Source: Thermococci archaeon (GTDB lineage Archaea; Hadarchaeota; B88-G9). From it: a stretch of DNA of 10,766 nt. The notes beneath the pieces were generated by a model. That model worked only from the letters and a program-made list of their open reading frames with translations. It made no database searches and was not told the DNA's origin. A program made the translations under genes and the position numbers. This document shows, piece after piece, positions 512-3,683 of this stretch (position 1 is its first letter; every line of letters begins with the position of its first letter). The stretch covers positions 1 to 10,766 of the forward strand of contig QMUK01000037.1 in assembly GCA_003660555.1 (NCBI GenBank). Reading direction: 5' to 3'.

Positions 512-733
512 ATGGAAAGTCTACTTAGGGAGGAGGAGGGCTTCTTTCTGGGTGTCTTCAATCTAAGAAATGAGGGGTACACGCAAGACGAAGCGATGTG
601 CGGATATGACACTTGCATAGGGGATGTGTGCTTAATAACAGATTATTGTGAGTTAGGAGACACTTGCGTCGGAGAAACATGCGAAGAAAGCATATTTGTC
701 CCACAGAGACTTGCGCTAGTGAGAATTGCTTAG
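512..733 (+). CDS. Cys-rich repeat RiPP-like precursor, 5' part (leader plus first six Cys)
   Basis: This frame carries the N terminus of the cysteine-rich protein. From ATG 512 there is a Cys-free stretch of about 29 residues (MESLLREEEGFFLGVF at its start) that resembles a RiPP leader, then six cysteines spaced Cys-x4/x5-Cys with an acidic residue two places before each of the last five (GYDTC, IGDVC, LITDYC, ELGDTC, VGETC). After the Cys at 680 the pattern collapses and the frame stops at 731. The same pattern resumes in the next frame at the Cys at 697, so the two frames are one gene broken by a frameshift. An in-frame GTG at 449 would add 21 residues and overlap the upstream gene. ATG 512 is preferred for its codon, but no strong ribosome site sits directly before it. 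Function is inferred from pattern and neighbours. Confidence 0.6.
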   Translation: MESLLREEEGFFLGVFNLRNEGYTQDEAMCGYDTCIGDVCLITDYCELGDTCVGETCEESIFVPQRLALVRIA

Positions 734-1383
734 AACACTACTGCCACAATCACACCTGCTCCGGATACTCCACGAATCTATCCTGCCCCCTAGCGCATTG
801 TCTCGTCTCATACGGATTAGTATTGTGCGTTTATCACACCTGCCCCGAAACACACTCTTGTAGAGACCATAGCTGTAATTCTTATGATTGCTCAATAAGA
901 CACTCATGTGAGGGAACAGACACCTGTCTCGAGGAAGTGTGTGGCCAGAGCGATTCCTGCACAACTGATGTTTGTTCAAATGAAGTGTGTAGAGCTCAAG
1001 ATGCGTGCGAGGAAGAATCCTGTGGAACAGACACTTGTCGTTCATCACACGTGTGTGCAAATGACGTTTGCGAAGAATCCAACTCCTGTGTCTTCAAGGA
1101 AGATTGCAGTAGTCACGATTGTTCTTCAGACACATGTTCTTCAGACACATGTAGCTCAGAAGACTGCTCTTCAGAGGAATGTTCCTCAGATAAATGCGAC
1201 ATAGAGAATTGCTCATCCCACGATTGCAAAGAGGACCATGATTGCACCTCCCATGAGTGTAACTCACACACTAGTCCAGGAAATCCAAATGAGAGCAAGT
1301 ACTCCAATGGGATATACCTGCCATTGAACCCCTTAAGGAGAATAGAGGACCTAAGAAAAGTATTCGGGAAGTGGTGGTCCTGA
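664..1383 (+). CDS. Cys-rich repeat RiPP-like precursor, 3' part (35 Cys)
   Basis: This is the main body of the cysteine-rich protein. From the Cys at 697 it holds 35 cysteines separated by 4 or 5 residues, with only two longer gaps of 8. The residue two before each Cys is nearly always Asp, Glu or His (TETC, LEHYC, GTDTC, SSHDC). The end of the repeat becomes almost uniform (CSSDT, CSSED, CSSEE). A Cys-free tail of about 39 residues follows, rich in Pro and Asn and then basic and aromatic, ending in GKWWS. The TTG at 664 and ATG at 679 give Arg-rich peptides that do not fit the pattern, so translation probably begins at 512 in the other frame. The stop at 1381 lies inside the radical SAM gene, indicating translational coupling. 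Likely role: substrate peptide modified at its Cys or [D/E/H] residues. A metal-binding metallothionein-like protein is the main alternative. Confidence 0.75.
   Translation: MRRRNMRRKHICPTETCASENCLEHYCHNHTCSGYSTNLSCPLAHCLVSYGLVLCVYHTCPETHSCRDHSCNSYDCSIRHSCEGTDTCLEEVCGQSDSCTTDVCSNEVCRAQDACEEESCGTDTCRSSHVCANDVCEESNSCVFKEDCSSHDCSSDTCSSDTCSSEDCSSEECSSDKCDIENCSSHDCKEDHDCTSHECNSHTSPGNPNESKYSNGIYLPLNPLRRIEDLRKVFGKWWS
680..699 (+). other. frameshift junction in the Cys-rich gene
   Basis: The Cys-x4/5-Cys pattern runs in one frame up to the TGC at 680 and continues in the -1 frame from the TGT at 697. One extra T in the TTT at 695-697 would give Ser-Ile-Phe-Cys-Pro and a regular five-residue spacer. 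No canonical X-XXY-YYZ slippery heptamer is seen. An indel in the read or assembly, or a true mutation, is therefore more likely than programmed shifting. Confidence 0.7.
1105..1224 (+). repeat. 15-base tandem repeat coding for C-S-S-x-x units
   Basis: Eight consecutive 15-base units begin at 1105, 1120, 1135, 1150, 1165, 1180, 1195 and 1210. Each starts with a Cys codon (TGT/TGC) and mostly encodes Cys-Ser-Ser-[D/E/H]-x. Units 1120-1134 and 1135-1149 are identical (tgttcttcagacaca) and the others diverge at several positions. This indicates recent growth of the repeat by unit duplication, in phase with the codons. Confidence 0.85.
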
Positions 1384-3212
1384 ATCTCCTAGAGTGCTAC
1401 TTCGCGGTCAATCCGATTGCCAAGTATGCTAGAACACTTAACGGAGGATCAATCTGGATTCAGCACCCAGAATATCTGAACTTCTTCTTGCAAGACATCT
1501 TGGAAAGGAGTAACGGAAGGAAAAGGCTAAAAGATCTGATCTCAGAGACTCTGGAGTGGTACAGGGAATGGGGCCTCTGCTTAGGAGAGGAAGAGGCCTT
1601 CGAGAGAATAAGAAGGAAAATAGAAATATTGCACAGAAAGGCCCTATTCGTTGCATTGGAAAAACCTACCAAAGAGGAAATAAGATTAAAAGTCCCAGAA
1701 ATAAACATAGAAATATCTGAGGACAGAATCTCTGCGTACTGCCAAGGAGAGAAGTTCGCCTCTTTGCCATTTGAGGAGAGAAGCAGGGAAGTTCTTCTCA
1801 GACCAATAGAAATCAGGAAACCCTACATGCTCCTTCCCCACCCGGGGATAGGATACAAGATGTTTCACCTTCTGTCCTTTTATTTCTCCTCTCAGGGGAA
1901 GGACTTGGTAGTGCCTGAGCCCTCGAAGAAGAAAATGAGAAAAATATATGCTGAATACGGAGACTATTGGAAGATCTTGCCAAAGGAAGACAGGGAGCTA
2001 ATAAAATCGGAGGAATCTCTGGGATTGAGAACACTAAGGGGCTACCTACCTGAGGCAATTCACTGGTATCCCACTTACAAGTGCAACTTCAGGTGTATAC
2101 ACTGCTCCAGAGAAGCTTCTCCGGATAGAACTGAGGAGGAACTGTCTCCAAATGAGAAGTATCAGCTCATTGAACATTTCTTGGAGAAGACCAATTTGAT
2201 GCACGTGAGCATAGTAGGAGAACCTTTTATTCTACCTGAGATCCTTGGAATAATGGAATTCTTGGCAGAGAACAGAGTTTACTTCCTAGTAGCAACCAAT
2301 GGATGGTTCGTAAACAAGAAAGTGGCAGATAAACTGGCTGAGTTCGGTCCCTATTTGAATCACGTGGAGATATCCATAGACGGAGCCTCCCCAGAGACCC
2401 ACGACTACTTCAGGGGAAGGAAAGGGGCATTCAAAAGGGCAATTAGGGCCATTAGGCTCTTGAGAGAAAGAGGAATACTGGTTTTACCCCAAGCATGCAT
2501 ACATTCTCTGAACAAGGAGGAAATCCCGAGAATATGGGACGTAGTCGTCAAGGAAGGAGGAGCAGACCACTTCAGGGTGATTCCCCTAATGGATCACGGT
2601 AGAGGAAAGAATCCAATTCTAAAGATAACCGGAGAGGAGGTAAGAGATGTATATCTCAAACTGAAGGAGAAGTACTACGAATACGAAGGAAGAGTATACA
2701 TAAGCAGACCATGGGAGCAAATATACGAAGAGGAAAGGGAAATGGAGCTTAGGAGAAGAGGAACTTTAATCTTGAGAAGGCCTAGACTATTGGGATCGCA
2801 CTGCTTCGCCATGTGCAAGGGTTTCTTGACCGAGGTAACGATAGAGCCAGATGGAAGCTACTGGCCTTGTTCCTACTTGGTGGGAGTTGAGGAATTCAAG
2901 GCAGGGAAGTTCCCAGATGACATAGTGGAGGTTTGGCTCAAGTCTGAGGCTATAAAGAGGTTCTCCTTGGCTAGGTTATCAATACCAAAGGAGTGTTACC
3001 CTTGCTCTAAAGCGACGCTCTGCAGGGGAAAGTGTGTCGCAGAAGCCTATCTCGAATACTTCGACTACTTCAGAGCAAGTCCAAAGTGTTCCTTGGCAAA
3101 TAAACAGCATGGAGAACACGGAGAAGAACGTAGAAGAGAAAATACTGAGTTTACCTATAGATCCAACCGGGAGCTAGGTAACTGCACTTGGATCTTGGAT
3201 ATCTTCGTCTAG
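1371..3212 (+). CDS. radical SAM/SPASM peptide maturase with N-terminal PqqD-like domain
   Basis: A 613-residue enzyme expected to bind three [4Fe-4S] clusters and use S-adenosylmethionine radical chemistry on a peptide. Residues about 20-95 look like a PqqD-type RiPP recognition element (a KRLKDLISE helix, then FERIRRKIEILHRKALF). Residues about 100-235 are of unknown type. The radical SAM core has Cys238-x3-Cys242-x2-Cys245 and a Gly283-Glu284-Pro285 SAM-binding motif. The C-terminal SPASM domain fits the family pattern exactly: Cys482-x12-Gly-x4-Cys500, then Cys542-x2-Cys545-x5-Cys551-x3-Cys555, and Cys573. A basic tail of about 40 residues follows. The GTG start at 1371 (GTG 1374 is an alternative) overlaps the Cys-rich gene by 13 bases, so that protein is the probable substrate. 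Thioether or other Cys crosslinking is inferred from characterised SPASM peptide maturases. Confidence 0.9.
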   Translation: MVVLNLLECYFAVNPIAKYARTLNGGSIWIQHPEYLNFFLQDILERSNGRKRLKDLISETLEWYREWGLCLGEEEAFERIRRKIEILHRKALFVALEKPTKEEIRLKVPEINIEISEDRISAYCQGEKFASLPFEERSREVLLRPIEIRKPYMLLPHPGIGYKMFHLLSFYFSSQGKDLVVPEPSKKKMRKIYAEYGDYWKILPKEDRELIKSEESLGLRTLRGYLPEAIHWYPTYKCNFRCIHCSREASPDRTEEELSPNEKYQLIEHFLEKTNLMHVSIVGEPFILPEILGIMEFLAENRVYFLVATNGWFVNKKVADKLAEFGPYLNHVEISIDGASPETHDYFRGRKGAFKRAIRAIRLLRERGILVLPQACIHSLNKEEIPRIWDVVVKEGGADHFRVIPLMDHGRGKNPILKITGEEVRDVYLKLKEKYYEYEGRVYISRPWEQIYEEEREMELRRRGTLILRRPRLLGSHCFAMCKGFLTEVTIEPDGSYWPCSYLVGVEEFKAGKFPDDIVEVWLKSEAIKRFSLARLSIPKECYPCSKATLCRGKCVAEAYLEYFDYFRASPKCSLANKQHGEHGEERRRENTEFTYRSNRELGNCTWILDIFV

Positions 3213-3317: not shown

Positions 3318-3683
3318 GTGAAGGAAGTACTAGAGGAAGACCCAGGAATAATTCATTCAATTTTAGCCAAAATTGTCCCTTGGGAGAAGCTGTCAACTAA
3401 GGATGACCTGAGACAAACGATAGATATTAGTGAGAAGAGATTCGAGGAGATGCTCCACTACTCAGAGAAGAGATTCGAGTCCGTTGAGAAACACCTCAAC
3501 TCAATAGAGAAGAGATTCGAGGAGATGCTCCACTACTCAGAGAAGAGATTCGAGTCCGTTGAGAAAAGGCTAGACGAGGTGAACTCTAGGATAGCACTCT
3601 TGGAGAAGGCTGTAATAGGCTTTAACCTCACCATTTTGGGAGCACTAATCTCCATTTTGATGAAGTTACTCTTCTTCTCTTAG
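3318..3683 (+). CDS. coiled-coil protein with C-terminal membrane anchor
   Basis: A 121-residue protein of unknown function. Residues about 1-30 form a short head (KEVLEEDPGIIHSILAK, then VPWEKLSTKDDL). Residues about 35-98 are a heptad-like coiled coil built from repeated SEKRFEE/SEKRFES units. The last 22 residues (FNLTILGALISILMKLLFFS) form one hydrophobic segment, so it is probably anchored in the membrane by its C terminus with the coil in the cytoplasm. GTG 3318 is the first standard start codon in frame, but the strong ribosome site at 3278-3284 suggests initiation about nine codons earlier at a non-standard ATA. The coil contains an exact internal duplication. It lies about 105 bases after the radical SAM gene on the same strand and faces aIF5A 37 bases downstream. 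No tie to the peptide system is shown. Confidence 0.75.
   Translation: MKEVLEEDPGIIHSILAKIVPWEKLSTKDDLRQTIDISEKRFEEMLHYSEKRFESVEKHLNSIEKRFEEMLHYSEKRFESVEKRLDEVNSRIALLEKAVIGFNLTILGALISILMKLLFFS
3432..3566 (+). repeat. exact 60-base direct repeat, period 75
   Basis: Bases 3432-3491 and 3507-3566 are identical over 60 bases, offset by 75 bases (25 codons, in frame). Each copy also contains two copies of gagaagagattcgag, so that 15-mer occurs four times. The identity at silent positions points to a recent in-frame duplication lengthening the coiled coil. Confidence 0.9.

Follow-up and report, generated by a model that had tools for sequence, protein, structure and literature searches.

What does an archaeon make from a gene for a 41-Cys polypeptide that runs directly into the gene for a radical S-adenosylmethionine (SAM)/SPASM enzyme? 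The two genes lie on contig QMUK01000037.1, a stretch of 10,766 nucleotides that is called the window here; the window is the whole of contig C37, and its host is an archaeal genome of 1.3 Mb in 150 contigs that is 91% complete. A preliminary description had read the pair as an archaeal system for ribosomally synthesized and post-translationally modified peptides (RiPPs). In the present analysis the long multi-Cys substrate and an enzyme of the RiPP-maturase radical SAM/SPASM type both held up, whereas the RiPP recognition element (RRE), a PqqD-like part claimed for the enzyme, was not confirmed. A RiPP-like system that places ranthipeptide-like thioether cross-links iteratively on giant substrates resembling the CefA peptides has, in our judgement, about an even chance of being correct.

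The Cys-repeat proteins and their spacer rule

The 41-Cys protein is referred to as precursor 2, since a second and longer protein of the same kind, precursor 1, is encoded elsewhere in the genome. The features of precursor 2 and of the enzyme in the window are as follows.

512-699, plus strand: first frame of precursor 2 (frame 2, ATG at 512), by translation a Cys-free leader of 29 residues and the first Cys residues
683-696, plus strand: -1 reading-frame change in precursor 2, placed by frame comparison between the Cys codons 680-682 and 697-699
697-1383, plus strand: second frame of precursor 2 (frame 1, stop codon 1381-1383), in which the Cys pattern continues with the remaining repeats and the tail
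599-1261, plus strand: Cys core with 41 Cys and spacers of the form C-x(2,3)-[DEHYNQF]-x-C
1288-1380, plus strand: Cys-free C-terminal tail NESKYSNGIYLPLNPLRRIEDLRKVFGKWWS, 77% identical to that of precursor 1
1371-3212, plus strand: radical SAM/SPASM enzyme of 613 residues with a 225-residue N-terminal region, read from a GTG start at 1371
2082-2105, plus strand: CxxxCxxC motif of the enzyme (C238/C242/C245), ligands of the SAM-binding cluster, in invariant alignment columns
2814-3089, plus strand: SPASM domain with seven Cys, C482 to C573, from a profile match and alignment

With the single -1 frame change bridged, positions 512-1383 encode 290 residues with exactly 41 Cys, the first at residue 30 and the last at residue 250, leaving 29 Cys-free residues in front and a Cys-free tail of 40 residues behind. 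The bridged translation thus bears out the 41-Cys protein with Cys-free ends that had been described across one frameshift, and the reported 13-base overlap of its 3' end with the enzyme reading frame also holds if GTG 1371 is the start codon. Such an overlap suggests that precursor and enzyme are translated in a coupled manner.

Regular spacing is the most visible property of the core. The 40 Cys spacings comprise 26 of length 4, 12 of length 5 and 2 of length 8, and none of 20,000 random Cys placements in the same core reached 38 of 40 spacings of 4 or 5; near the C-terminal end the Cys form a strict every-fifth run. Precursor 2 is not a DNA microsatellite, because all that Tandem Repeats Finder detects is a 15-mer repeated imperfectly about 5 times (1120-1196) and the Cys codons are a mixture of TGT and TGC.

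Precursor 1 was found by searching the same genome with precursor 2 as the query. It lies on contig C120, together with a gene called X1 (467 residues, with a hydrophobic helix at the N-terminus) and the first 290 residues of a related gene, X2. After bridging, precursor 1 has 409 residues and 60 Cys, with 52 of its 59 spacings being 4 or 5. The 77% identity between the two tails spans the last 31 residues (NESKY.NGIYLPLNPL..IEDL.K.FG.WW.). The proportions of differing synonymous and nonsynonymous sites (pS and pN) are 0.52 and 0.11 in the tail and 0.82 and 0.27 in the homologous middle repeats and, by this measure, both precursors evolve under purifying selection. Relative to the frame change, the middle repeats lie upstream in precursor 1 and downstream in precursor 2, and the tail lies downstream in both; selection has therefore acted on the protein encoded on either side of the changes. 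A common tail combined with differing leaders suggests that an enzyme may recognize the C-terminus.

A second regularity concerns the residue two positions before each following Cys (Cys-2), and was assessed over the 4- and 5-residue spacers of both precursors, 89 in number with the bridging position left out. This residue is D, E, H, Y, N, Q or F in 87 of the 89 spacers (41.6 expected), a count that none of 20,000 permutations reached and that stays at 87 with W included in the set. His occupies the position 23 times and Tyr 7 times, and Ser and Thr never do so, though Ser is the commonest spacer residue. In 5-residue spacers a residue of this class stands at +4 from the preceding Cys in 32 of 33 cases and at +3 in 9 of 33, which ties the register of the rule to the following Cys.

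The rule can be read in two ways. All residues of the set carry a C-H adjoining a carbonyl or aromatic group, and such a C-H would be the kind of position used by enzymes of the PapB type. On PapA, PapB installs six bonds between a Cys sulfur and an acidic side chain, at the beta-carbon for Asp and at the gamma-carbon for Glu, and it tolerates Cys-Xn-Asp at values of n from 0 to 6 (PMC9413430). Like the ranthipeptide freyrasin (PapA/PapB), the present system has repeats in which an acidic residue comes 3-4 positions after a Cys, a radical SAM/SPASM enzyme and the prospect of the iterative modification known from PapB (PMC9413430), and the 5-residue spacers correspond to the CX3D-type unit of PapA. 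The systems differ in that 40-60 units are found here against six CX3D units, PapA acceptors are Asp and Glu only, and PapB is not among the best 25 models for the window enzyme.

The other reading, which is the main rival to the thioether reading, is that the precursors stay unmodified and serve as polythiols for metal binding or redox buffering, in the manner of metallothioneins, with Cys and D, E, H and perhaps Y as ligands and with another or a minor role for the enzyme. It draws on the 76 of 89 spacers with D, E or H at Cys-2, the usual metal ligands alongside Cys, and on the acidic character of the precursor 2 core (46 D/E to 7 K/R); since D, E, H and Cys are all common metal ligands, composition alone cannot separate the two readings. 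However, metallothioneins usually employ CxC or CxxC clusters, which are absent from the precursors, and the precursor 2 gene overlaps in coding sequence with a RiPP-type maturase gene. The Cys-2 rule is also followed by CefA peptides, there mainly with D, N and Q rather than D, E and H. Unmodified polythiols are judged unlikely.

Small, uncharacterized RiPPs with a Cys at every fifth position are already named in NCBIfam (CefA, NF038108, and its enzyme CefB, NF038107), and a search of a limited paper collection found no experimental paper on the CefA/CefB system. Two loci from genomes whose label as Thermococcus-like is a guess (L037 8247-10363 and L200 1269-3070) hold paired CefA peptides beside a TIGR04463/CefB-like enzyme. 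Their peptides follow the Cys-2 rule in 26 of 28 spacers, with 7.7 expected, and no other observation argues as strongly as this shared rule that long proteins and CefA peptides would function alike. The resemblance extends to repeated C-x4-C, a polar or aromatic residue at Cys-2 and precursor genes in tandem next to one for a radical SAM/SPASM enzyme. The second frame of precursor 2 scores 28.4 bits against the CefA model (E = 1.1e-6) and that of precursor 1 scores 18.6 bits, both under the curated cut-off of 30; among the 94 genomes of the presumed Thermococcus-like family, just 2 exceed that cut-off. Unlike the CefA loci examined, which have about 5-11 Cys, the proteins described here have 41-60, mix spacings of 4 and 5, and use D, E, H and Y at Cys-2 rather than D, N and Q; the conserved C-terminal tail, the X proteins and a non-CefB enzyme are further differences. 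Matches to the CefA model at L034, L035 and L201 are simple repeats or lie in other reading frames and were not accepted as CefA. L037 also encodes a small exported protein and ATP-binding cassette (ABC) transporter genes.

The radical SAM/SPASM enzyme

The enzyme matches the radical SAM family PF04055 (79 bits) and the SPASM family PF13186 (22.1 bits, cut-off 21.5), both above cut-off. The SPASM cysteine pattern that had been attributed to it is present in full, with CxxxCxxC and all seven SPASM Cys in the arrangement C482-x12-G-x4-C500, C542-x2-C545-x5-C551-x3-C555-x17-C573. The motif Cys are invariant across 26 aligned sequences, except C573, which is nearly so. In an AlphaFold model the radical SAM part (residues 231-440) has a predicted local distance difference test score (pLDDT) mostly above 80, and the closest solved structures are the RiPP maturases SuiB, SkfB and CteB, followed by anSME. 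These three maturases share the radical SAM and SPASM fold with the enzyme at 16-21% identity, but they have no detectable counterpart of its N-terminal 225 residues.

By sequence models the enzyme lies nearest the AhbD/NirJ/ScmE group (118-124 bits), whose archaeal relatives are 23-29% identical over the catalytic part. The scores are far under the cut-offs of 400-650 bits, and the enzyme differs from that group in its extra N-terminal region and its Cys-repeat gene neighbour. In archaeal relatives the alignment starts no earlier than about residue 215, and the N-terminal region is therefore specific to the window enzyme. The CefB model gives 33.7 bits over model positions 92-273 only, against a curated cut-off of 600; on these scores the enzyme is not CefB.

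The best-scoring models also underlie another explanation, namely that the enzyme modifies the precursors in a different way, by alpha-carbon (sactipeptide) thioethers, by C-C cross-links of His, Tyr or Asp, by epimerization, or by using them as a scaffold for a small molecule. The models that score best, ScmE, AhbD and the mycofactocin maturase, are not known thioether makers. SuiB, the closest structural match, forms a Lys-Trp C-C bond, unlike SkfB and CteB, which form thioethers. A Cys every 5-6 residues with a fixed acceptor position instead favours Cys chemistry over any that ignores Cys, and this explanation appears distinctly unlikely.

The PqqD-like (RRE) domain that had been assigned to the N-terminus was not recovered. 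Pfam gave no PqqD match even at an E value of 10, and RRE prediction by hhalign of residues 1-110 against a profile of 21 archaeal PqqD-like sequences gave 5%. Two PqqD-like sequences kept out of the profile as positive controls reached 96% and 93%, and an unrelated protein as negative control reached 26%. The elements of this alignment fall in a plausible order as judged by eye only, and AlphaFold models the N-terminus with low confidence. L209 (contig C35 of genome G038; the same frame as L008) encodes an archaeal enzyme of the radical SAM/SPASM type that does have a real PqqD domain at the N-terminus; its catalytic part shares 28% identity with that of the window enzyme.

Locus organization and frame changes

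The X2 gene is split between two contigs, as listed below.

1-480 of the window, plus strand: C-terminal part of X2, truncated by the contig start; window residues 5-149 align to X1 305-449
L162 1-872, minus strand: remainder of X2 at the end of C120; the C120 fragment aligns to X1 1-264

Contig C120 probably lies directly upstream of the window, because no X copies besides X1 and X2 turned up in the genome, the two broken X2 pieces sit at contig ends and the estimated gap is about 110 bp; this join rests on the split gene, overlap between these two contigs being absent. On the other side, the end of contig C87 and the start of C120 (reverse strand) overlap by exactly 123 bases. Upstream of X1, C87 carries a precursor-tail remnant (L170 5598-5660) that consists of EDQKKIFGNWWN and the non-coding sequence after it, which suggests that the cassette arose via tandem duplication and has since lost one copy. 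The gene order would thus be tail remnant, X1, precursor 1, X2, precursor 2 and enzyme. A second, diverged Cys-repeat gene in this inferred locus and the spacer rule shared by both genes strengthen the reading of the Cys-repeat proteins as substrates. An AlphaFold model of X1 had a mean pLDDT of 40 and was not used. Following the enzyme, window positions 3318-3683 encode a coiled-coil protein whose gene has an internal repeat of 33 bases (3432-3554) and whose C-terminus carries a hydrophobic helix.

This layout also bears on the explanation that the adjacency is due to chance, the Cys-repeat proteins being disulfide-linked surface or structural proteins and the enzyme belonging to heme or cofactor metabolism. 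The N-terminal hydrophobic helix of X suggests a location at the membrane or the surface of the cell, AhbD/NirJ models match the enzyme, and there is no second genome for testing conservation. Yet the precursor 2 and enzyme genes overlap, the enzyme has its specific N-terminal region, and the genome encodes a separate AhbD/NirJ2-like enzyme on contig C84 that scores about 280 bits, compared with 118 for the window enzyme. Chance adjacency is judged improbable.

Each precursor gene contains one -1 frame change. The sequence in precursor 2 is GAAGAAAGCATATT, flanked by Cys codons, and that in precursor 1 is CTCTCCAA, between Cys codons at about 1578-1592 of L162 (C120), minus strand; the two are unrelated. 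Neither site has a canonical slippery heptamer or unusually stable RNA downstream (folding z -1.18 for precursor 2), and for this reason programmed frameshifting is not claimed. An ATG stands at or just before each change, at window positions 679-681 (with GGAG at 671-674) and at the change itself on C120, so that translation may restart at an internal ATG of each gene. About 20 other genes on these contigs look intact when their open reading frame (ORF) lists are inspected by eye. An overlap of exactly 123 bp between contigs is suggestive of a short-read k-mer assembly, a type in which indel errors are uncommon but repeats can be misassembled.

Distribution, proposed mechanism and significance

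Searches for relatives were made with methods that detect close relatives only. No full-length orthologue of the enzyme was found in 297 archaeal genomes, in viral contigs or in a scan of about 85,000 species, and the viral contigs likewise gave no match to X1 or the precursor. The three weak matches to the enzyme N-terminus in the 297 archaeal genomes are all in unrelated proteins, and a precursor match in G243 falls in a membrane protein that has a CGNGxCE motif and is likewise unrelated. Nine Cys codons at an exact spacing of five occur in at least 115 stretches of the genome collection; almost every one of those listed is a simple repeat or is read off-frame, with no radical SAM gene next to it, and a bare Cys-every-fifth frame is therefore weak evidence by itself.

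Contig C3 of the same genome encodes a second radical SAM enzyme of the peptide-maturase type, which is TIGR04463/CefB-like (183 and 146 bits, L232 1351-2700, minus strand). Directly upstream of it is an ORF of 87 residues (L232 2704-2967, minus strand) whose C-terminal end includes 4 Cys (DCSSNLTVEIPACKFTCGIYCS) and which may encode a small RiPP precursor.

Several of these observations weigh against thioether cross-linking by the window enzyme. The system is seen in one genome only, both of its precursor genes are interrupted by a frame change, and no peptidase or dedicated transporter was identified adjoining the genes. By scores the enzyme falls outside the PapB/CefB group, its best NCBIfam models (all far under cut-off) are ScmE, AhbD and the mycofactocin maturase, and neither Pfam, AlphaFold nor hhalign shows an RRE in it; the C3 enzyme, with its better CefB score of 146 bits, could act instead. 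The Cys-2 letters also suit metal ligands and, to our knowledge, His and Tyr are not established as ranthipeptide acceptors.

The gene layout fits a RiPP system, in which a dedicated enzyme modifies a ribosomal precursor that is then usually cleaved, and from it we infer how cross-linking could proceed. The ribosome would make two long acidic polypeptides with 41 and 60 Cys in C-x(2,3)-[D/E/H/Y/N/Q/F]-x-C units. The enzyme encoded after precursor 2 would bind both, perhaps via the C-terminal tail, and proceed along the chain, linking the sulfur of each Cys to a carbon in the side chain of the acceptor 3-4 positions later (Cys-2 of the next Cys). About 40 and 60 thioethers would result, giving a polythioether chain comparable to the action of PapB on PapA, and X1 and X2, membrane-anchored or exported, may retain the product at the cell surface or handle it there. 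In its fullest form, this proposal amounts to a giant polythioether with about 100 cross-links on two substrates, with Asp, Glu, His and Tyr acceptors and one enzyme from a lineage that is not known to produce ranthipeptides, forming an extended surface or metal-binding polymer; that form is rather unlikely.

Beside the named CefA/CefB system, the size of the substrates, their tail and acceptor set, the pairing with X genes and an enzyme of a different lineage are new, and the spacer rule, which CefA peptides share, is itself newly described. As C-x(2,3)-[DEHYNQF]-x-C, this rule predicts the partner residue of each Cys. RiPP enzymes with known products mostly modify short peptides with few cross-links. 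If the cross-linking reading is true, His and Tyr acceptors would broaden the known chemistry, and radical cross-linking would build protein-sized material, here of 290 and 409 residues, beyond small peptides.

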